Shown here: positions 1-7,415 of the stretch, piece by piece
Layout: each line of letters begins with the position of its first letter
Position numbering within the stretch: the first letter of the stretch is position 1
DNA from: Planctomycetes bacterium RBG_16_43_13
GTDB taxonomy: Bacteria > Planctomycetota > MHYJ01
DNA length: 7,628 nt
Direction: 5' to 3'
Assembly (NCBI GenBank): GCA_001828445.1
Contig: MHYJ01000037.1
Coordinates: 2,380-10,007 of the forward strand
Program-made: the position numbers and the translations under genes
The notes under the pieces: model-generated
Databases searched by the model: none
What the model was told of the DNA's origin: nothing
The model's input: the letters and a program-made list of their open reading frames with translations, nothing else

Positions 1-491
1 TTCAGCCCCATCACGCCTAGTCTTAGTACGTCCTGTGGATCGTGAACCCCAATCGCGTTTAGACTACGCGCAACTTGATCCGTGATTCCAGGGATGTCCT
101 GCAACTTGGCGATTGTGTGCTTGGCATTAGACAATTGTGCACGTCCATTTGGTTTTGTTTCTTGGGCAATTGGCTCAGGTGGAGACAGTGGCTCTGGATT
201 GTCGGCAACAACCGTCGCCTCCATAATAATCGGTTTGAATAAATGCGGTTGAACGGCAATATCAGACCGATGCACGTAAAACTTATCCCCGCCGCCGCGG
301 TATCCATAGTCCGTTGGTGGTTTTTTTCCCATACCAATTACATGATGCTGCCCAATATTTGGGTGAGCGTATAGCACCAAAACCATCTCGTTATCATTAA
401 TATTCATTACAGCAGCCCCTTGTTGTTGTATTTGTTGCGCAGCTGGTTGTTGCGCAATGGATTTATTCTTACCTCGGCAGTTACATCCCAT
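1..491 (-). other. C-terminal tail module of the large glycosyltransferase; possible nested or formerly separate small gene
   Basis: The second GT2 domain ends naturally near residue 820. The next residues, from Met822, read MGCNCRGKNK, a Cys-rich N-terminus of the kind I associate with small phage proteins. A Gln-rich stretch (835-845) and a second Met (850) follow, then a domain containing YGYRGGGDKF and QPHLF, a Pro/Glu-rich spacer, and an HhH-like segment truncated by the window edge. The in-frame ATG at 489-491 is preceded by GAGGG at 502-506, ten bases away, so a shorter product could be initiated inside the gene. A second internal ATG (405-407) has AAGGGG upstream. Seen: motifs, in-frame Mets, purine-rich stretches. 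Inferred: a gene fusion, or an internal start giving a separate protein. HhH segments commonly bind DNA or mediate protein contacts; neither is shown here. Confidence 0.5.
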
Positions 492-2954
492 AGGTTCTAC
501 ACCCTCATATTTGTCTATCAGGTATTCTACTAGATTGCGATGCTCCTGTAAACCAATCTCCCTGCGTGTGCCGGTGTAAAAGCGATACACCATCAGCTCT
601 TCAGGGATGCGTACAAAACACTTGCCGTGATGCGCCATCCTGATCCAGTAGTCCCAATCCTCCCAAGATTCCATGTGCTCGTCAAACCCACCGATCTCCT
701 CATGCCACTTTTTAGGGACAAGTGAACTGATCAAGCACCAAATGTAAGGATCGGGGAAGCGCGGCTGGATGATCGCACGGTCATAGTCGTACTCAAGACT
801 ATTATGGCGGACTACCGCTTCTCCACGTTTCCCATCATAGTACAACAATCGTTCGCCAAGCTTTGTCGCTTCTTGGTATTCGATATAAGCCTTGCCAACA
901 TAGTCTGTGTAGATAATGGCGTTCTCTGCCGTCCACATATCGTACATTCTGCGTAATGCTTCAGGGTAAAGCCAATCATCTGCATCAAGGAATAAAAGCA
1001 TTGGGGCGCGGGCGATTTTTGCACCGGCGTTACGCGCTGCCCCTGCACCATGATGTTCGGGGATCGTGTAACGGACATACGGATAAGGCTTAAGCACTCT
1101 CCCATCCACAAGGAGCGGAATGTCCCCCGTATCATCTACGATAATAACTTCCCATTTTCTAAAAGATTGCGACTCAAGACTATCCAGTACGTTGACCACA
1201 TCTTTTACGTGATTTGGGCCAACGGGGACAATCACGCTGACCAACGGCTCATCGTAGGCTCTTACCAAATGGCTTATACCGTTTTTAGGCGTAGCAACAC
1301 TGGCAAATGGGTGCTGACCATCTTTAGCCCAGGGGTGCAGCCCAAGCCAATCTGGCTCACGATAATCCTTATTACCGCTGACCCTGCCGGACAACCATGA
1401 GTACACAAACAACGGTAGATCAGTGGCAAGTTTAGCGCCCCATCCATAAGCGCCACACCTGAGCCAAAACTCAGCATCTTCCGATCCTGCCCCTGTTGGG
1501 GCATAGCGCGGATTGTATCCACCTAATCGTTCCCACATCTCACGTCTAAATACACACGCAGTCGGCACTTGATTTTGTCGGCGCGATTGCTTGTCATAAT
1601 CGAACGGGCCCGGCCATGGACTAACGCCCGTCTCTCCATCCGGCTTGATGTACTGCAAGCGTGTATAGGCTATTCCCAGTGAACGGTCTTTTTGTAGCTC
1701 AGGTACACACACTTCGATAAACTGCGGCTCAACTTTATCATCTGCGTCAAGGGCGACTATAAATTTAGAACTGGAATATTCAATGCCCGTGTTACGCGCA
1801 ACTGCCACGCCAGAATTGTTCTGTCGGATATACACAACAGGTATCTTCTCACCAGAAAAGGACTTGACCAGTCTTTCTGTTGCGCCATTATCGTCAGAAC
1901 CATCGTCAACCACAATGATCTGTTCAGGCGGATAAGTTTGGGCTAAGGCGCTGCGAATGGCACGGCCAAGTTTATCTTCACTCGCGTAATTGAACGATGG
2001 GATCACAACACTAACCGTGGCAGGTTGTTTCTCTTGTTCAATTGCAAGGCGATACACCTGGCTTACTTTCTCAACCGCAGCTTGCCATGTATATTGTTTG
2101 GCCATCTCACTGCCGTTATCGCCAAGGACTTTTCGGTGTTGCAGGCAGTAGTTTAGCCCTTCCGTAAGATCATCGTAATTGCCTGGCTGTGCAAGATAGC
2201 CATTAATGCCGTGCTTGATAAGTCCTAAATTGCCGCCATTCGCAAAACCAAGTACGGGTACTCCACTTGCCATTGCTTCTAAAACACCCACGCAAAATGT
2301 TTCCTTGACCGTGCTAAGATACACACCGGCGCTTTGGATAATGCGCTTCATGTCCGCGTGCGGCTTTAGTCCAGTGACAGTAATGTTATCATTATCTGCG
2401 CCAAAAAGTTCTTTGGGTGGAGCAAAGGTGGTGATGAACAGTTGGTTGGGGAACTCCTTGGCCAATACACCCACTGCATGTGGCGTGCAAACGTCTGATG
2501 TCCTGTTCTTATTCCAAAGTACGTACCCTTCGTTGGGATGATTATGTTGCCAATCTTGCCAATCAATGCCATGACCGATCACGGTGGGATTGATGCGCAT
2601 ATCCCTACGGAGTGTCTCGGCCACCCAGTTTGATGGAACTGTGACTTGATTAGCGTGGCGGATAGAAGCAATAACATCAGCGTTAGCACCAAGCTCCCAC
2701 CGCTCGTAAGGTAAGTCAGCACTCCAATACAAACCATGGATTATTGAACACAGAGGTTTACCTGGCTGGATATGCTTTGCCGATCCGGCGTGGATGGCCA
2801 TAACATCGTAATTATCAGTCTCTTTAGGATCGCACTCTACGTACTCGATGCCAAAATTCTTACCATACTTGTGATATGCCAGTACGACTTGCTTAATACC
2901 CGATTCTTCCGAGCGGAAGGAACTGAGCAGGGGGAACATCAATGCACGAATCAT
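1..2954 (-). CDS. Multidomain glycosyltransferase (GT4-GT2-GT2) with cysteine/HhH C-terminal tail, 3' end outside window
   Basis: An open frame runs from ATG at 2954 to the left edge without a stop, at least 984 codons, so the C-terminus is missing. Residues 1-305 look like a short GT4 domain with the EX7E signature (E218, E226) and the GVPVLGF stretch after it. Residues 311-555 are a GT2 domain: VSVVIPSFN start, DD at 350-351, DADD at 403-406, catalytic-type ED at 492-493. Residues 568-820 are a second GT2 domain: VSVIVP from 572, DD 607-608, DADD 657-660, ED 765-766. A CxC and Gln-rich linker follows (822-849), then a small unassigned domain (850-908), a Pro-rich spacer, and an HhH-like segment with IPGI at 954-957. 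Expected role: successive sugar transfer from nucleotide-sugar donors in the cytoplasm; donors and acceptor unknown. The start overlaps the upstream stop in ATGA (2951-2954) and has only a weak Shine-Dalgarno, suggesting translational coupling. GT domains are confident; the role of the tail is unknown. Confidence 0.88.
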   Translation of the reverse strand, partial: MIRALMFPLLSSFRSEESGIKQVVLAYHKYGKNFGIEYVECDPKETDNYDVMAIHAGSAKHIQPGKPLCSIIHGLYWSADLPYERWELGANADVIASIRHANQVTVPSNWVAETLRRDMRINPTVIGHGIDWQDWQHNHPNEGYVLWNKNRTSDVCTPHAVGVLAKEFPNQLFITTFAPPKELFGADNDNITVTGLKPHADMKRIIQSAGVYLSTVKETFCVGVLEAMASGVPVLGFANGGNLGLIKHGINGYLAQPGNYDDLTEGLNYCLQHRKVLGDNGSEMAKQYTWQAAVEKVSQVYRLAIEQEKQPATVSVVIPSFNYASEDKLGRAIRSALAQTYPPEQIIVVDDGSDDNGATERLVKSFSGEKIPVVYIRQNNSGVAVARNTGIEYSSSKFIVALDADDKVEPQFIEVCVPELQKDRSLGIAYTRLQYIKPDGETGVSPWPGPFDYDKQSRRQNQVPTACVFRREMWERLGGYNPRYAPTGAGSEDAEFWLRCGAYGWGAKLATDLPLFVYSWLSGRVSGNKDYREPDWLGLHPWAKDGQHPFASVATPKNGISHLVRAYDEPLVSVIVPVGPNHVKDVVNVLDSLESQSFRKWEVIIVDDTGDIPLLVDGRVLKPYPYVRYTIPEHHGAGAARNAGAKIARAPMLLFLDADDWLYPEALRRMYDMWTAENAIIYTDYVGKAYIEYQEATKLGERLLYYDGKRGEAVVRHNSLEYDYDRAIIQPRFPDPYIWCLISSLVPKKWHEEIGGFDEHMESWEDWDYWIRMAHHGKCFVRIPEELMVYRFYTGTRREIGLQEHRNLVEYLIDKYEGVEPMGCNCRGKNKSIAQQPAAQQIQQQGAAVMNINDNEMVLVLYAHPNIGQHHVIGMGKKPPTDYGYRGGGDKFYVHRSDIAVQPHLFKPIIMEATVVADNPEPLSPPEPIAQETKPNGRAQLSNAKHTIAKLQDIPGITDQVARSLNAIGVHDPQDVLRLGVMGL
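421..460 (-). repeat. Low-complexity CAA-rich stretch encoding a Gln-rich linker
   Basis: On the coding strand this stretch is rich in CAA triplets and contains a 9-bp direct repeat, GCGCAACAA, at 432-440 and 447-455. It encodes Ala/Gln-rich residues around 835-845 of the large glycosyltransferase, between the CxC motif and the small domain. It most likely serves as a flexible tether, and simple-sequence slippage could change its length. Confidence 0.6.
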
Positions 2955-3412: not shown

Positions 3413-3709
3413 TTATCTTTTTGGTAAAACTTTTAGCAGCTGTTCCTTACGGAACCAGCCCATTTTGTTCATCGTCTCCTGGTCCAACACGTTCAGATCG
3501 TCAAAGCTGTCCACCACGATGATAATAACATTTAGATGTCCAGCTGTTACAATGGCATTGGTTAGTTTGTCGATAAAGTCCTTTTGGGCAATGTTTGTTC
3601 CGTACTTTAGCGCCAGTACGTCCCCGTCGCGTAGGTGTAATTTACCAACAAACTTGTTGATCTGGCGGAAGCTAAAGGCTGGTTGATCGTTTTGTGGTTT
3701 TTCTAACAT
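3413..3709 (-). CDS. Hypothetical small soluble protein
   Basis: The product has 98 residues from ATG 3709. This start is preferred over ATG 3733 because AAGGA (3718-3722) lies eight bases upstream and the overlap with the preceding sulfotransferase gene is shorter (38 bases, 3672-3709). After a polar N-terminus the chain contains LHLRDGDVLALKYG (about residues 24-37), a helix, a very hydrophobic strand (NVIIIVV) followed by DSFDDLNVLD, and a MGWFRKE segment near the end. This alternating strand/helix pattern suggests a small alpha/beta fold; the single hydrophobic strand is too short and too closely followed by Asp to be a membrane helix. I connect it loosely with small orphan proteins of phage genomes, but cannot name a family or function. 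Confidence 0.75.
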   Translation of the reverse strand: MLEKPQNDQPAFSFRQINKFVGKLHLRDGDVLALKYGTNIAQKDFIDKLTNAIVTAGHLNVIIIVVDSFDDLNVLDQETMNKMGWFRKEQLLKVLPKR

Positions 3710-4490
3710 TGGGAAGGTCCTTGTACCAATCATTGGATTGTATATAACCTAATTCCATCATTAGCTTACCTGCATGATTATGCAGTCTTTCCCCGTCCTT
3801 ACAGGTAAAGTAGTTACGCCAATCACCGACCACACCCTTGCGCAAGTGCTTTAGTTGGGCATCTTTGCCGTAGGGCATGTTATCCCCGTTCTCCTCGATC
3901 AGCCTGCGCCTATATGCAAAGTCTTGGTTCACTATTGCCGTTTCAATATCCTGATCTGATGGGAGTTTTACGCTAATACAGCTAAGTATATTGTATAGCG
4001 TAACACCTGTATTGGTTAGCAATTGACTGAACTTTATTTGTACAAACTTTATCTTCGACTCCTGCCATGCGGTTATGTAATCTACCCATGAGCAGGGCAT
4101 TATGCTGCTCTCGGCAGTAATATAGTCGATAGCTTTGTCAAGATCGGGCAATCCCCAATAAAACATGACCGATACTGCCACGCCACGTGGATCGCGCAGT
4201 ATGTGGATAATACGCTCCCCCTTCCACGCTGATTCATTCAATATTGTGTCACCAATAATCAGCTGTTCCACAGGTTGTTTATTTGCGTCAGCTGGCGCGT
4301 AGCGCCTTTCGGGGAATAAATGCAACTGGTGGATTTTGTAGTTCCCAGGTCTATCCAACCCCTCGTCCGCAATAGAATGATATTGCCCGTAACTGACCAC
4401 AGGTGAGTTTAGTGCCTCCCCTAAAAGTCTGGCAAGATAAGCCGTGCCGCTGCGTGGATAGCCTACTACAAAGATAGCGTTATTTTGCAC
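3672..4490 (-). CDS. PAPS-dependent sulfotransferase (sulfotransferase family 1-like)
   Basis: The product has 272 residues. The N-terminal GYPRSGTAYLARLL (10-23) matches the 5'-phosphosulfate-binding loop. LRDPRGVAVS (98-107) matches the 3'-phosphate-binding segment, and RKGVVGDW (217-224) matches the C-terminal cofactor motif. KIHQLH at 52-57 sits where family members carry the catalytic K-x-H, so His54 is the likely base. Length fits the 250-320 residues usual for the family. The reaction would be transfer of sulfate from PAPS to a hydroxyl, probably on a sugar given the neighbours; the substrate is not readable. There is no signal peptide or membrane helix, so it is cytoplasmic. The start is GTG, overlapping the end of the aminotransferase gene by 11 bases. 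No PAPS-synthesis gene is present, so the cofactor must come from elsewhere. Confidence 0.9.
   Translation of the reverse strand: MQNNAIFVVGYPRSGTAYLARLLGEALNSPVVSYGQYHSIADEGLDRPGNYKIHQLHLFPERRYAPADANKQPVEQLIIGDTILNESAWKGERIIHILRDPRGVAVSVMFYWGLPDLDKAIDYITAESSIMPCSWVDYITAWQESKIKFVQIKFSQLLTNTGVTLYNILSCISVKLPSDQDIETAIVNQDFAYRRRLIEENGDNMPYGKDAQLKHLRKGVVGDWRNYFTCKDGERLHNHAGKLMMELGYIQSNDWYKDLPNVRKTTKRSTSL
3718..3722 (-). promoter_or_regulatory. Ribosome-binding site deciding the start of the 98-aa protein
   Basis: AAGGA on the minus strand lies eight bases before ATG 3709 and inside the 3' end of the sulfotransferase gene. No comparable site precedes the alternative ATG at 3733. Confidence 0.6.
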
Positions 4491-5634
4491 CGTAAAACTC
4501 CTTGATCGAATCGGCTACGTACTCCACCTCACTATCCTTTAACGCCTGGTGGATGGGCAGATTGAGCGTATGGGCGGCGGCATATTCAGCGCCCGGCAAT
4601 TCACTACCATCGTGTTCGTAGTATTTTACGCGGTGTAGTGGGAAATATCTGAAAGTGGTGTAAATCATCTTACTGCGGAGAAACCTGGCTAGATCGTCAC
4701 GATCCTTCGTCTGTATCCAGTAAAAGTAGTAACTGTGGGTCTGGTAATCCTTTTCGTCAGGAGGAGTTTCTACCACTTTTTTTAGATGCTTATTATACAA
4801 CTTGTGAATTTCCCTGCGCCGCTCTATAAATCCTGATAGTCTTTGTAACTGTACTACGCCAATGGCGGACTGTACATCATTCATAATAGACCTGTCGCCT
4901 GGGTATGTTACTTCAAACTCCCACCAGCGTAAGTCCGTACTGACCATGCCGCTCTCACTGGATAAGCCCAAAAAGCACATGCGTTCGGCATGTTTCATCA
5001 GTTCTTCGTGCGCCACATACATCATTCCGCCATCGCCCGTGCATAGTATCTTCATTGCGTCAAAAGACCAAACACCAAAGTCGCCCCATGTACCACAGGC
5101 TCTTCCCCTGTGGGTGCTCGCCACACTACAGGCGCTATCTTCGATAAGATACAAGCCCATAGTTACGCAAAACTCTGCGATCTTGTCAATCTCACACGGT
5201 AAGCCGCCATAGTGCAGCACTACCACCGCGATAGTATCACGGTTGCACATCCTCTCAATATGCTCCACAGTTGGGTTTAATGTACGAGGATCAACGTCGC
5301 AAAACCTTGGCTTTAGACCCGCAGATACTACTGCGTTGGCTGCCCCAACAAAACTTATACTGGGCATAACCACATTAAGTGTACGTGACAATGGGTGGAA
5401 TGAACGGATCAATGGGTGGAGTGAACGGATCAATCGCATTATGTTAAACAAGCCAGCGGTGCAGCTGCTTGTGGATAATGTTTTAGCGGGCGGCACTTCC
5501 AGGTGGTTGGCAAACATGTGCTCAAACCTGGAAGTTTCTTGTCCTTTGCCAATCCAGTTAGAACTAAATACCCTGGACACCTCAGCAAGCTCTAGCGGAC
5601 CAATGGACGGTTGGAACACCTGGATTTGGTTCAT
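4480..5634 (-). CDS. DegT/DnrJ/EryC1-family PLP-dependent sugar aminotransferase
   Basis: The product has 384 residues. The family core is clear: VVMPSISFVGAANAV (88-102) for the usual DEVIxPxxTFxA region, CDVDPRTLNP (112-121), EDSAC (165-169) with Asp166 facing the pyridine nitrogen, RGRACGTWGD (176-185), and WSFDAMKILCTGDGG (189-203) with Lys195 as the PLP lysine. NDVQSAIGVVQL (252-263) is also typical. It should transaminate a keto-sugar nucleotide, normally with glutamate, giving an amino sugar for a glycan. ATG 5634 is used; the frame also opens one codon earlier with TTG. ATG shares one base with the upstream TGA, and GAGGA (5644-5648) lies nine bases before it. An in-frame duplication adds a repeated heptad at residues 69-82. 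No sugar dehydratase accompanies it here. Confidence 0.92.
   Translation of the reverse strand: MNQIQVFQPSIGPLELAEVSRVFSSNWIGKGQETSRFEHMFANHLEVPPAKTLSTSSCTAGLFNIMRLIRSLHPLIRSFHPLSRTLNVVMPSISFVGAANAVVSAGLKPRFCDVDPRTLNPTVEHIERMCNRDTIAVVVLHYGGLPCEIDKIAEFCVTMGLYLIEDSACSVASTHRGRACGTWGDFGVWSFDAMKILCTGDGGMMYVAHEELMKHAERMCFLGLSSESGMVSTDLRWWEFEVTYPGDRSIMNDVQSAIGVVQLQRLSGFIERRREIHKLYNKHLKKVVETPPDEKDYQTHSYYFYWIQTKDRDDLARFLRSKMIYTTFRYFPLHRVKYYEHDGSELPGAEYAAAHTLNLPIHQALKDSEVEYVADSIKEFYGAK
4498..4503 (-). promoter_or_regulatory. Ribosome-binding site supporting the GTG start of the sulfotransferase
   Basis: A full AAGGAG on the minus strand lies seven bases before GTG 4490, inside the last codons of the aminotransferase gene. 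The nucleotide-binding loop begins nine residues after this GTG, so no later start can be right. Confidence 0.8.
5390..5431. repeat. 21-bp tandem direct repeat, two copies, in the aminotransferase gene
   Basis: Two adjacent 21-base units (5390-5410 and 5411-5431) differ at one position. They encode IRSLHPL and IRSFHPL, residues 69-82 of the aminotransferase. The following residues (SRTL) look like a weak continuation. Being a multiple of three, the repeat keeps the frame. Confidence 0.9.
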
Positions 5635-5780
5635 CAACTTTTATCCTCAACAAAATATGTGGCGGCAAACATAACAATCATTACAGCGCCAGGGATCAAT
5701 ATCCACCAGGTGAATATTGCGCTGACTACCACCAATGTTATAACCATAATTCCAAGAGTGATAATGTTTGCTTTTCTCAT
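5634..5780 (-). CDS. Very small two-helix membrane peptide
   Basis: The product has 48 residues from ATG 5780, which overlaps the TGA of the GT10-like gene in ATGA (5777-5780). A longer in-frame version from 5825 would overlap that gene by about 50 bases and adds a hydrophilic leader, so the short form is preferred. Two hydrophobic stretches, about residues 6-23 and 25-43, are joined by WW-containing residues near IFTWW, and the end is FVEDKS. A basic MRK start and acidic C-terminus suggest a hairpin with both ends on the cytoplasmic side. Its function is unknown: it could be a holin-like peptide or a membrane anchor for the neighbouring glycan enzymes. It stops at the first base of the aminotransferase start codon, so both are probably translated together. 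Confidence 0.65.
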   Translation of the reverse strand: MRKANIITLGIMVITLVVVSAIFTWWILIPGAVMIVMFAATYFVEDKS

Positions 5781-6631
5781 AATCCTATGACCCCATAATC
5801 CTTTAGCACACGATCCCATAACCAATCTTCGGCTATCTCATACTCACCAACCAGGTCAAGGTTAGTCTTGATATAAGGCAGCATCTCGGTGTACGTTTTC
5901 ATAGTAGCGAACATTCTCAGAATATACCTTAGGTTGTCTACACCAACAAAAGGCACTATCCCAAGCTGATCGAAGAAATAGCCTGCATTTGGACATCCCC
6001 AGAAAATAGGCACAGTACCAACGGCAAAGCAATCCAATAGTATCTCCGTGAATAGATTGTCCTGCCTGCACGTCTCTGTAACAATGCTAAAAGCGTAATC
6101 CTGCAATACGCGCCTTTTCGTCTCCGCGCTATAGTCTGTAGGAGTACCCCTAAAGCCGTAATAGTCTATCCCATAATTGTCGCCTAACTCACCGGCAATA
6201 TCATGCCTTAGTATATGACCACGAGTGGACATTTTACTGCCGTATAGCATACTGACCAGTTTAGTCTTGGGTGCTATTCCCCAATGTTCGCGCTTGATCC
6301 AAATCCCTCCATACGGCGCAAATCTAAACTTATCATAATCAGTGTCTATCAACGGTTGATAATAAGTCAAAATAAAGGCAAACTTGTGCCGATTGTCAAA
6401 GGCTTGCGCATAATCCTGTGGGTGTAGACACTCCGGTTCTCTGAGCCAGCCAATCTTGATTGGACTTTTTACCTGTTGCACAATGGGACTGTTGATTAGC
6501 CCATCAGTAAATATGGTGATCCCATCAAACTGCATTTGCTCCCGAACGTAACGGATATGCTTGGAAGTTTTCCATGCTGTGCTACATTCATCGTGAGCAA
6601 ACGTTGGGGTGAATAAGTTTACGGTCAGCAT
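5777..6631 (-). CDS. GT10 / fucosyltransferase-like glycosyltransferase
   Basis: The product has 284 residues from ATG 6631. That ATG lies one base after the TAA of the methyltransferase gene, with GGATGG (6636-6641) just upstream; a longer frame opening at 6835 would lie inside that gene. The C-terminal half carries a pattern typical of GT10 enzymes: KMSTRGHILRHDI (about 133-145), a DYYGF stretch, then DYAFSIVTET (about 178-187), LFTEILLDCF (193-202) and GTVPIFWG (205-212). In fucosyltransferases the corresponding segment is roughly F-x-E-N...TEK...PI-x-x-G, so the usual Asn is replaced here. The N-terminal half would bind the acceptor and the C-terminal half a GDP-sugar. Fucose as donor is only a family expectation. 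It is cytoplasmic, with no membrane helix, and the following 48-aa membrane peptide might tether it. Confidence 0.78.
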   Translation of the reverse strand: MLTVNLFTPTFAHDECSTAWKTSKHIRYVREQMQFDGITIFTDGLINSPIVQQVKSPIKIGWLREPECLHPQDYAQAFDNRHKFAFILTYYQPLIDTDYDKFRFAPYGGIWIKREHWGIAPKTKLVSMLYGSKMSTRGHILRHDIAGELGDNYGIDYYGFRGTPTDYSAETKRRVLQDYAFSIVTETCRQDNLFTEILLDCFAVGTVPIFWGCPNAGYFFDQLGIVPFVGVDNLRYILRMFATMKTYTEMLPYIKTNLDLVGEYEIAEDWLWDRVLKDYGVIGL

Positions 6632-6632
6632 A

Positions 6633-7415
6633 TTACCATCCAAAACAGTAAAAGTTATTGTCTGGCAAGTGAGTAATGTGTGAGAATGACCAACTTTTAT
6701 CCGGCCTGCCAGTCGCATATTTTTGAAAGTAGTCCACATTATCAAGGCCAGCAAACCTGTTCGAGTATAAAAAGAGATAGTTTTTTGATGGGATTGCTGC
6801 AAGGAACGCATCGCGCTGTGCAAAGTCCGTCTCACTTAAGGAATAACATGCAACCAATAAATCCGCAGATACTTGCGGTAATGCGGACATATCGGTGTAA
6901 TGCTCTACCGTAATGTCAAACTTTGACAGATAATATTGCTGTAAAAGGCTAAACTCCGGCAGATCAAAAATGATATACCGCCCTTTAAATCCCAGGCGGT
7001 GGATCAGCAGCGCCAAAGCCCCATATCCTCCTCCAAACTCCACGATAGTCTGCATTGTATCTACGTAGCGATGGGCTGTATCTTGGAAACGATGGATGTG
7101 ATAAGCCTGGTGGATCATATTGCGACTGTATGGGCTGTTGCCGTGATGATCAGGGGGACTGCCAAAATATGGCATATCGACTGCTGGCAACATCTTGCCT
7201 GGGAGGGCGTTAAACTCTACTTGGATAGGCTGTGGCCAGTGATTAACAAGTTGTGTATGAAAAATTTCTGGCCATCCCATAAATTCACCTGGGTCATCTC
7301 CAGTAACCACGTGTTGCCATAAACTGTGTCGCCAAAAGCTCCAATATGGGGGGCTTGAATCCGAGGGTGGTTCTGGTAACGCCTGCATTGCTGCTCTAAA
7401 TTCATCATTGTTCAT
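6633..7415 (-). CDS. SAM-dependent methyltransferase, putative sugar O-methyltransferase
   Basis: The product has 260 residues. A Rossmann-type SAM site is visible: EFGGGYGALALL (126-137) is motif I, YIIFDLPEF (147-155) holds the acidic residue of motif II (Asp151), and ACYSLSE (189-195) is the motif IV region. The DLPE sequence followed by LLQQYYL is characteristic of the putative sugar O-methyltransferase group found in polysaccharide and phage glycan loci. The N-terminal 120 residues are Trp/Pro-rich and would form the substrate cap. It probably methylates a hydroxyl of a sugar on a glycan made by the neighbouring transferases; substrate and position cannot be read. ATG 7415 overlaps the 67-aa gene by 11 bases, with AGAGGTGG (7428-7435) twelve bases upstream, a rather long spacing. 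Confidence 0.82.
   Translation of the reverse strand: MNNDEFRAAMQALPEPPSDSSPPYWSFWRHSLWQHVVTGDDPGEFMGWPEIFHTQLVNHWPQPIQVEFNALPGKMLPAVDMPYFGSPPDHHGNSPYSRNMIHQAYHIHRFQDTAHRYVDTMQTIVEFGGGYGALALLIHRLGFKGRYIIFDLPEFSLLQQYYLSKFDITVEHYTDMSALPQVSADLLVACYSLSETDFAQRDAFLAAIPSKNYLFLYSNRFAGLDNVDYFQKYATGRPDKSWSFSHITHLPDNNFYCFGW

Follow-up and report, generated by a model that had tools for sequence, protein, structure and literature searches.

The 7,628-nucleotide stretch analyzed here (hereafter the window) comprises positions 2,380 to 10,007 of contig MHYJ01000037.1, from an assembly assigned to Planctomycetes bacterium RBG_16_43_13. At one end it carries a single open reading frame (ORF) that joins three glycosyltransferase (GT) domains to a small C-terminal tail (Table 1). 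The frame begins with an ATG on the reverse strand, has no stop codon and is still open at position 1 of the window, giving a chain of at least 984 residues with the order GT4, GT2, GT2, cysteine (Cys) motif, small beta-barrel and partial helix-hairpin-helix (HhH). An initial annotation made from the letters alone had described just such a chain, with a GT4 and two GT2 domains, a Cys- and glutamine (Gln)-rich linker, a small domain and an HhH-like end, and the frame, Pfam, sequence motifs and a structural model bear it out. Membership in the two GT families is supported by Pfam matches over the cut-off (Glyco_transf_4/Glycos_transf_1, residues 54-274; Glycos_transf_2, 315-467; a second GT2 stretch, 573-788), together with an EX7E motif, two LDADD motifs and two acidic (ED) motifs, each close to the end of a GT2 domain. 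We take EX7E, LDADD and SEDAEF/WEDWDY to be the catalytic motifs. The closest sequence in the PDB is chondroitin synthase (2z86, E-value 1e-23, in two stretches), a bacterial polysaccharide polymerase that likewise carries GT2 domains in a single chain but lacks both the GT4 domain and the tail. The tail comprises the last 163 residues from M822, namely MGCNC, a Gln-rich linker, the beta-barrel and the first half of the HhH; its missing end is seen in P0002, a protein 93% identical to the window chain that stops 26 residues further on.

A profile scan of viral contigs with the whole chain yielded, as the best 80 of 102 relatives, members from 78 loci with 28-51% identity to the query over their best segments. 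Together with the window and locus L009 these make 80 loci, of which 72 are distinct after removal of eight with identical or nearly identical C-termini (L031, L042, L045, L073, L076, L078, L083 and L092); two of the 72, L041 and L044, are separate sites on one contig. The GT chain is fused in frame to the tail in 68 of the 72 distinct loci, the window included: in 66 the chain is in frame with a tail led by the Cys motif, and in L090 and L095 only the last GT2 domain is joined to such a tail. The initial annotation considered the fusion unusual, yet it is no one-off, and a homolog with the same domain order, which it had proposed to look for, is encoded on viral contig L001, where the entire chain is present end to end with 51% identity to the window. 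A search with the tail profile recovered nine loci, eight of them fused, and a region search of protein databases returned 15 fused proteins (P0017-P0031). A scan of one genome per species for 84,980 bacterial and archaeal species yielded only three distant GT loci with 23-24% identity, and the idea that the tail is a common extension of GT2 enzymes, named at the outset as a possible refutation, is thus unsupported. Likewise, a tblastn search with five tails (from the window, L009, L010, L077 and L049) found no tail relative among 50,697 phage records, the lone match being residues 136-180 (the HhH) of the L010 tail to two records of one Halorubrum virus with an E-value of 0.2. As judged from these sequences, this phage gene is widespread and normally occurs as the fusion.

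Within this gene, the tail begins at a conserved start codon. We defined the junction codon as the nearest ATG, GTG, TTG or CTG lying at most five codons ahead of the motif's first Cys, excluding C..C motifs within GT2. It is a start codon in all 66 analyzed fused loci (ATG in 56, GTG in 8 and TTG in 2), and one was found at the junction in 58 of 58 representatives clustered at 60% identity; the same five-codon search for ATG, GTG or TTG elsewhere in these genes succeeds in 24.8% of cases. The residue ahead of the Cys motif is Met in all of the loci compared first except L007, which has a Val encoded by GTG; in L029 the ATG lies five codons ahead of the Cys. A junction Val is always encoded by GTG and a Leu always by TTG, for which the joint probability is 2.3e-6 given the codon use of each gene. 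On an IQ-TREE phylogeny of 70 rows, whose bootstrap had not fully settled, the GTG label requires 7 changes and the TTG label 2; hence, the junction codon switched repeatedly and yet remained a start codon. Of 16 fused database proteins (P0011 and P0017-P0031), 13 have Met and 3 have Val at the junction; this set includes one fragment (P0011) and two proteins, P0017 and P0020, whose contigs had entered the counts above.

The junction codon is also preceded by a Shine-Dalgarno (SD) signal, which we measured as the duplex energy with the anti-Shine-Dalgarno sequence over a 15-base segment that ends 3 bases ahead of the codon. Across the 58 representatives the mean is -8.35 kcal/mol, as against -5.67 in synonymous shuffles that use each gene's own codons (z -9.5; 0 of 1000 shuffles). 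As controls, the mean at 2411 other internal NTG codons is -2.31, and 802 other internal ATGs show no excess strength (-2.10 observed versus -2.43 shuffled); a value of -6 is reached by 84.5% of the junctions versus 7.8% of the controls. In L001, for example, the junction reads AAAGGAG, then seven bases, then ATG. We then repeated the analysis on loci found through a different gene, scanning the viral contigs with the capsid-like neighbor (see below) instead of the GT or the tail. Many of the loci among the best 80 of 101 relatives lay on contigs already represented or lacked a complete GT-and-tail pair nearby, and L163, which duplicates L162, was excluded. This left ten new distinct fused loci that share no more than 52% identity with those found earlier (L112, L140, L142, L144, L157, L158, L162, L173, L175 and L177, of which L157 holds only the last GT2 domain). 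All ten have a start codon at the junction (8 ATG, 1 GTG and 1 TTG) and an SD energy of -6 or below, with a mean of -8.96. A conserved in-frame internal start with its own ribosome-binding site, by which we recognize a nested pair, is accordingly present in 66 of 66 loci and again in 10 of 10. This conserved nested start of the tail is new relative to the initial annotation, and the tail gene is, by these sequence signals, very probably nested within the GT gene. With a conserved start codon of its own inside the gene, the tail is probably produced on its own as well; start codon and SD together suggest that one gene probably yields two proteins, the free tail and the GT-tail fusion.

What the tail might do is suggested by its fold and its surroundings. 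The initial annotation had proposed to analyze it separately from the GT domains, and profile searches and structure prediction now point to a small beta-barrel, with an HhH in L010 and L009. The AlphaFold2 model of the window tail has a mean pLDDT (the model's per-residue confidence) of 84, with 91-97 in the barrel block. The best PDB row in a Foldseek search is the C-terminal domain of lambda gpFI (E-value 0.12), and a fold search of BFVD gave nothing at an E-value of 0.001 or below, its best rows (0.07 to 0.2) being mostly unnamed phage proteins. The half-module HhH of the window has only weak Pfam matches, whereas full-length versions match HHH_5 at 1e-10 in L010 and, just under the cut-off, at 2e-5 in L009; the HhH called at the outset is thus half present in the window and complete in relatives, and it is not a constant part of the tail. 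Other tails carry other modules: that of L051 matches an E3-binding domain, and a stand-alone relative in L178 matches HTH_17 just under the cut-off. Apart from HhH (L010, L009) and the E3-binding domain (L051), naming of the tails by sequence profiles gave weak matches only; the head-tail connector family DUF7302/phrog_748 matched one of ten tails scanned, that of L077, and there only with E-values of 0.0095 and 0.061, which fall short of the Pfam cut-off.

In support of the initial suggestion that the gene is phage-borne, its relatives sit in viral contigs that also encode a tape measure, a terminase and further phage proteins. The order around the tail is capsid-like gene, tail, neck-like gene and tape measure, and the capsid-like family (A10; e.g., L020 3255-4664) is present in 12 of 12 records tested. 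In L178, a locus with no GT match, the capsid-like and neck-like genes flank the gene for a free-standing MGCNC barrel protein (11713-12210). The genes for lambda gpFI, a packaging chaperone, and for YqbF of the skin prophage are similarly positioned between capsid and neck genes, and both proteins combine a small barrel with an extra module, as does the tail. On the strength of gene position and modeled fold, we lean moderately toward the tail being a head protein of the gpFI/YqbF kind. Of a 14-member protease-like family, one member matches a 'head maturation protease' (E-value 0.003) and one a 'major head protein' (0.0024); the Pfam portal profile matched 1 of 12 records, below the cut-off. 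A search of GenBank phages with one member each of the capsid-like, protease-like and neck-like families yielded no name. As the capsid-like protein matches nothing in PHROGs, PDB sequences or, for one member, GenBank phages, the group may lie outside the described phages. We also observed that the protease-like family (A12; L038 149-1720), encoded 5' of the capsid-like gene, tends to have a Cys-led start like that of the tail (MCCGSR.. in L038, 'MC' in the 14-member consensus).

Upstream of the GT chain, the window contains a cluster of sugar-related genes (Table 1). By eye, sulfotransferases occur in 43 of 70 clustered loci and DegT aminotransferases in 28 of 70. The cluster also encodes a 106-residue protein (3413-3733, reverse strand) whose sole match is phrog_10352, of unknown function (E-value 1.3e-6).

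Table 1. Features of the window, with coordinates from its first nucleotide and residue numbers from the chain's first ATG
Feature	Position	Strand	Basis
Fused ORF GT4-GT2-GT2-tail, at least 984 residues	3..2954	(-)	Open frame; full-length homolog L001
GT4-type glycosyltransferase domain, residues about 1-305, EX7E at 218	2040..2954	(-)	Pfam PF13439/PF00534 and motif
First GT2 domain, residues about 310-560, LDADD at 402, SEDAEF at 491	1275..2027	(-)	Pfam PF00535 315-467; PDB 2z86
Second GT2 domain, residues about 571-816, LDADD at 656, WEDWDY at 764	507..1244	(-)	Pfam PF10111 573-788 and second PF00535 stretch
Shine-Dalgarno-like GAGGG 5' of internal ATG	502..506	(-)	Duplex -6.1 kcal/mol
Internal in-frame ATG, tail codon 1 (M822)	489..491	(-)	Start codon at same place in fused relatives
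Cys motif CNC right after internal start (family: M-x-C..C)	477..485	(-)	MGCNC, residues 822-826, window 491-477
Small tail beta-barrel, tail residues 33-88 (chain 854-909)	228..395	(-)	AlphaFold2 model; Foldseek
HhH first half, residues 951-984, interrupted at window end	3..104	(-)	Model helices; family profile; whole in P0002, L001
Sulfotransferase	3672..4490	(-)	Pfam PF00685 1.5e-15
DegT/DnrJ/EryC1 aminotransferase	4480..5637	(-)	Pfam PF01041 2e-78
GT10 (fucosyltransferase-like)	5777..6835	(-)	Pfam PF00852 1e-5, over cut-off
Methyltransferase-like	6633..7415	(-)	Weak Pfam PF00891 0.0056, below cut-off; akin by eye to L001 ORF

The fusion, its conservation, the start codon with its SD and the gene neighborhood can be read from the sequence; from them we infer two products in a set ratio, docking on the capsid and glycosylation of the virion, as follows. 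Ribosomes starting at the first ATG would make a GT4-GT2-GT2 transferase bearing the small head-associated protein at its C-terminus, and those starting at the internal ATG, GTG or TTG with its own SD would make the small protein alone. The latter, consisting of the Cys motif, the barrel and often a DNA-binding-like module, and encoded between the capsid-like and neck-like genes, would be the abundant form. Because both products would share the small protein, the low-copy fusion could take docking sites of the free form by means of the common barrel, carrying the transferases onto the prohead. There they would build a glycan on a virion protein, with the products of the adjacent aminotransferase, sulfotransferase, methyltransferase-like and GT10 genes helping to supply and decorate it. 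The whole mechanism, from nested gene through prohead docking to virion glycosylation, is in our view evenly balanced between right and wrong. The initial annotation had raised the possibility that the tail attaches the transferases to a virion component; this remains the best explanation and is strengthened by the present data, with the docking itself still something we infer. A broader proposal, which we advance more tentatively, is that these loci belong to an undescribed large group of environmental tailed phages, in which a packaging chaperone that binds proheads and a glycan synthase comprising three enzymes are nested, their ratio is set by the two starts, C/Nu3-like co-assembly targets virion glycosylation, and a side branch with TGA codons (L125, L129 and L132) may be read through.

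The nearest precedent is the C/Nu3 pair of phage lambda, in which an assembly protein with its own start shares the reading frame and the C-terminal part of an enzyme and brings that enzyme into the prohead. The likeness lies in the in-frame enzyme and the separately started assembly protein, corresponding here to the fusion and the predicted free tail; however, in lambda these are a protease and a scaffold, whereas here they are three glycosyltransferases and a gpFI/YqbF-like protein, and we claim no sequence relation. The interaction of C with Nu3 is among those tabulated in PMC3224144. As described in PMC4856287, gpFI sits on the lambda prohead lattice and is a proposed DNA binder; the tail differs from gpFI and YqbF in its N-terminal Cys motif and in forming the C-terminal end of a GT chain. 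The A111/114R protein of chlorovirus PBCV-1 combines three transferase functions in one protein serving the glycans of the major capsid protein, which are made with virus-encoded enzymes (PMC7826918), but this is a eukaryotic algal virus and the abstract mentions neither a capsid-docking tail nor a nested start. In mycobacteriophages, glycans are found on capsid and tail-tube subunits (Freeman 2023, as cited in PMC12619734), though the citing passage mentions no fused docking module. Among the titles and abstract openings surveyed, there was no fusion of a GT with a head protein having an internal start.

Several observations weigh against the prohead-docking mechanism or its parts. The tail is a separate downstream gene in 4 of the 72 loci (L009, L053, L068 and L071, in the last behind an HNH gene), and an in-frame TGA stands at the place of the Cys motif in L125 (about 21092), L129 with its copy L130, and L132 (about 16204), where the GT part is 51-52% identical. 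In the window itself, the GAGGG lies ten bases ahead of the ATG and its -6.1 kcal/mol is no better than synonymous shuffles (p 0.62). Synonymous codon identity over the SD stretch is not raised in 30 pairs (21 of 55 versus 0.441, at few sites), which could fit if the SD site drifts within its stretch, as it may. The resemblance of the barrel to gpFI and YqbF is weak, with no fold match significant by E-value and no significant sequence match; in a structural second look GINS barrels equal or outscore gpFI, so that gene position contributes as much as fold to the gpFI/YqbF reading. The model of a second tail subfamily (pLDDT 73) had no Foldseek match below an E-value of 1.2, and the HhH profile matches just 20 of 66 tails. 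The capsid-like gene found no match in PHROGs (0 of 29), Pfam Phage_capsid (0 of 12) or PDB sequences, nor did the neck-like gene (A11) in PHROGs or PDB sequences; being unrecognized by these libraries, both owe their identities to gene order.

One alternative is that both products are made but the tail has no docking role: the internal start would be kept for the head protein, the absence of a stop would couple its translation to that of the transferase, and the GTs would act elsewhere, for instance on the host surface. This accounts for all the start-codon data, and the four loci with a separate tail evidently live without the fusion. Coupling, however, is achievable without fusion by a stop beside the start, as in L009 (TAG A ATG) and L068 (TGA G ATG), and across very diverged loci one uninterrupted frame has nonetheless been kept, the separate form needing 3 changes on the unrooted tree; hence, we regard this alternative as unlikely. 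It is improbable that only the fusion is made and that the junction Met, Val or Leu either belongs structurally to the Cys motif or is left over from a former gene boundary. A Met beside the motif could have a structural role, and such a residue would sit well with the unraised codon conservation near the SD; but it would not explain why Val is confined to GTG and Leu to TTG, why the SD exceeds its shuffles when other internal ATGs show no excess, or why all the codon changes on the tree are among start codons, a pattern repeated in the ten new loci. A third alternative, which we consider highly improbable, is that the GTs modify phage DNA, to which the DNA-binding-like modules of the tail would bring them during packaging. 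The HhH tails, the HTH_17 match in L178 and the proposed DNA binding of gpFI (PMC4856287) would suit such a role, and DNA-hypermodifying phage GTs are known in the literature, going by the title of a reference. Yet most tails lack a recognized DNA-binding module, the sulfotransferase, DegT and GT10 neighbors resemble glycan decoration, and a thymidylate-synthase-like gene was found in 0 of 30 records, which may be fragments, as against 9 of 14 controls; a Tet/JBP search carries no weight, as it matched none of the controls. Finally, although the window is a fragment ending at position 1, an assembly or sequencing error joining two genes near 490-520, the other refutation foreseen in the initial annotation, is ruled out for practical purposes by the same fusion on many contigs and in L001.

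We know of no account of how phage glycosyltransferases find their virion targets. If the prohead-docking mechanism holds, the genome itself suggests an answer, in that the enzymes would bear the module by which a head protein, probably also made free, docks. A start codon followed by a Cys motif within a GT gene offers a search marker for such phages. Annotators should also be aware that these loci can be named plain glycosyltransferases, as in the JGI names of P0017, P0019 and P0020, with the small protein overlooked.

Two kinds of atypical loci deserve description. The TGA contexts in L125, L129 and L132 are RRG-TGA-GN, RRG-TGA-RG and RRH-TGA-GG, respectively, and in all three a hairpin is predicted about 20 bases past the TGA. 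None has a start with a strong SD within 50 codons after the TGA; an SD-like stretch with an ATG before it is kept in L125 and L132 and not in L129. No Rfam match and no tRNA was found in these loci, and the TGA may represent selenocysteine, another form of readthrough or plain gene splitting. The second kind harbors genes for homing-type endonucleases inside or beside the GT gene, identified by Pfam as HNH in L009 (6784-7488) and L071 (11327-12088) and as LAGLIDADG in L067 (9881-10690, reverse strand). Inserts in L050, L046 and L090 have a weak DUF968 match or none, and introns that might join the split genes had no Rfam match in L009, L046, L050, L067, L071 or the window. The endonuclease-type inserts either split the GT4 domain from the GT2-GT2-tail portion or occupy the tail junction.

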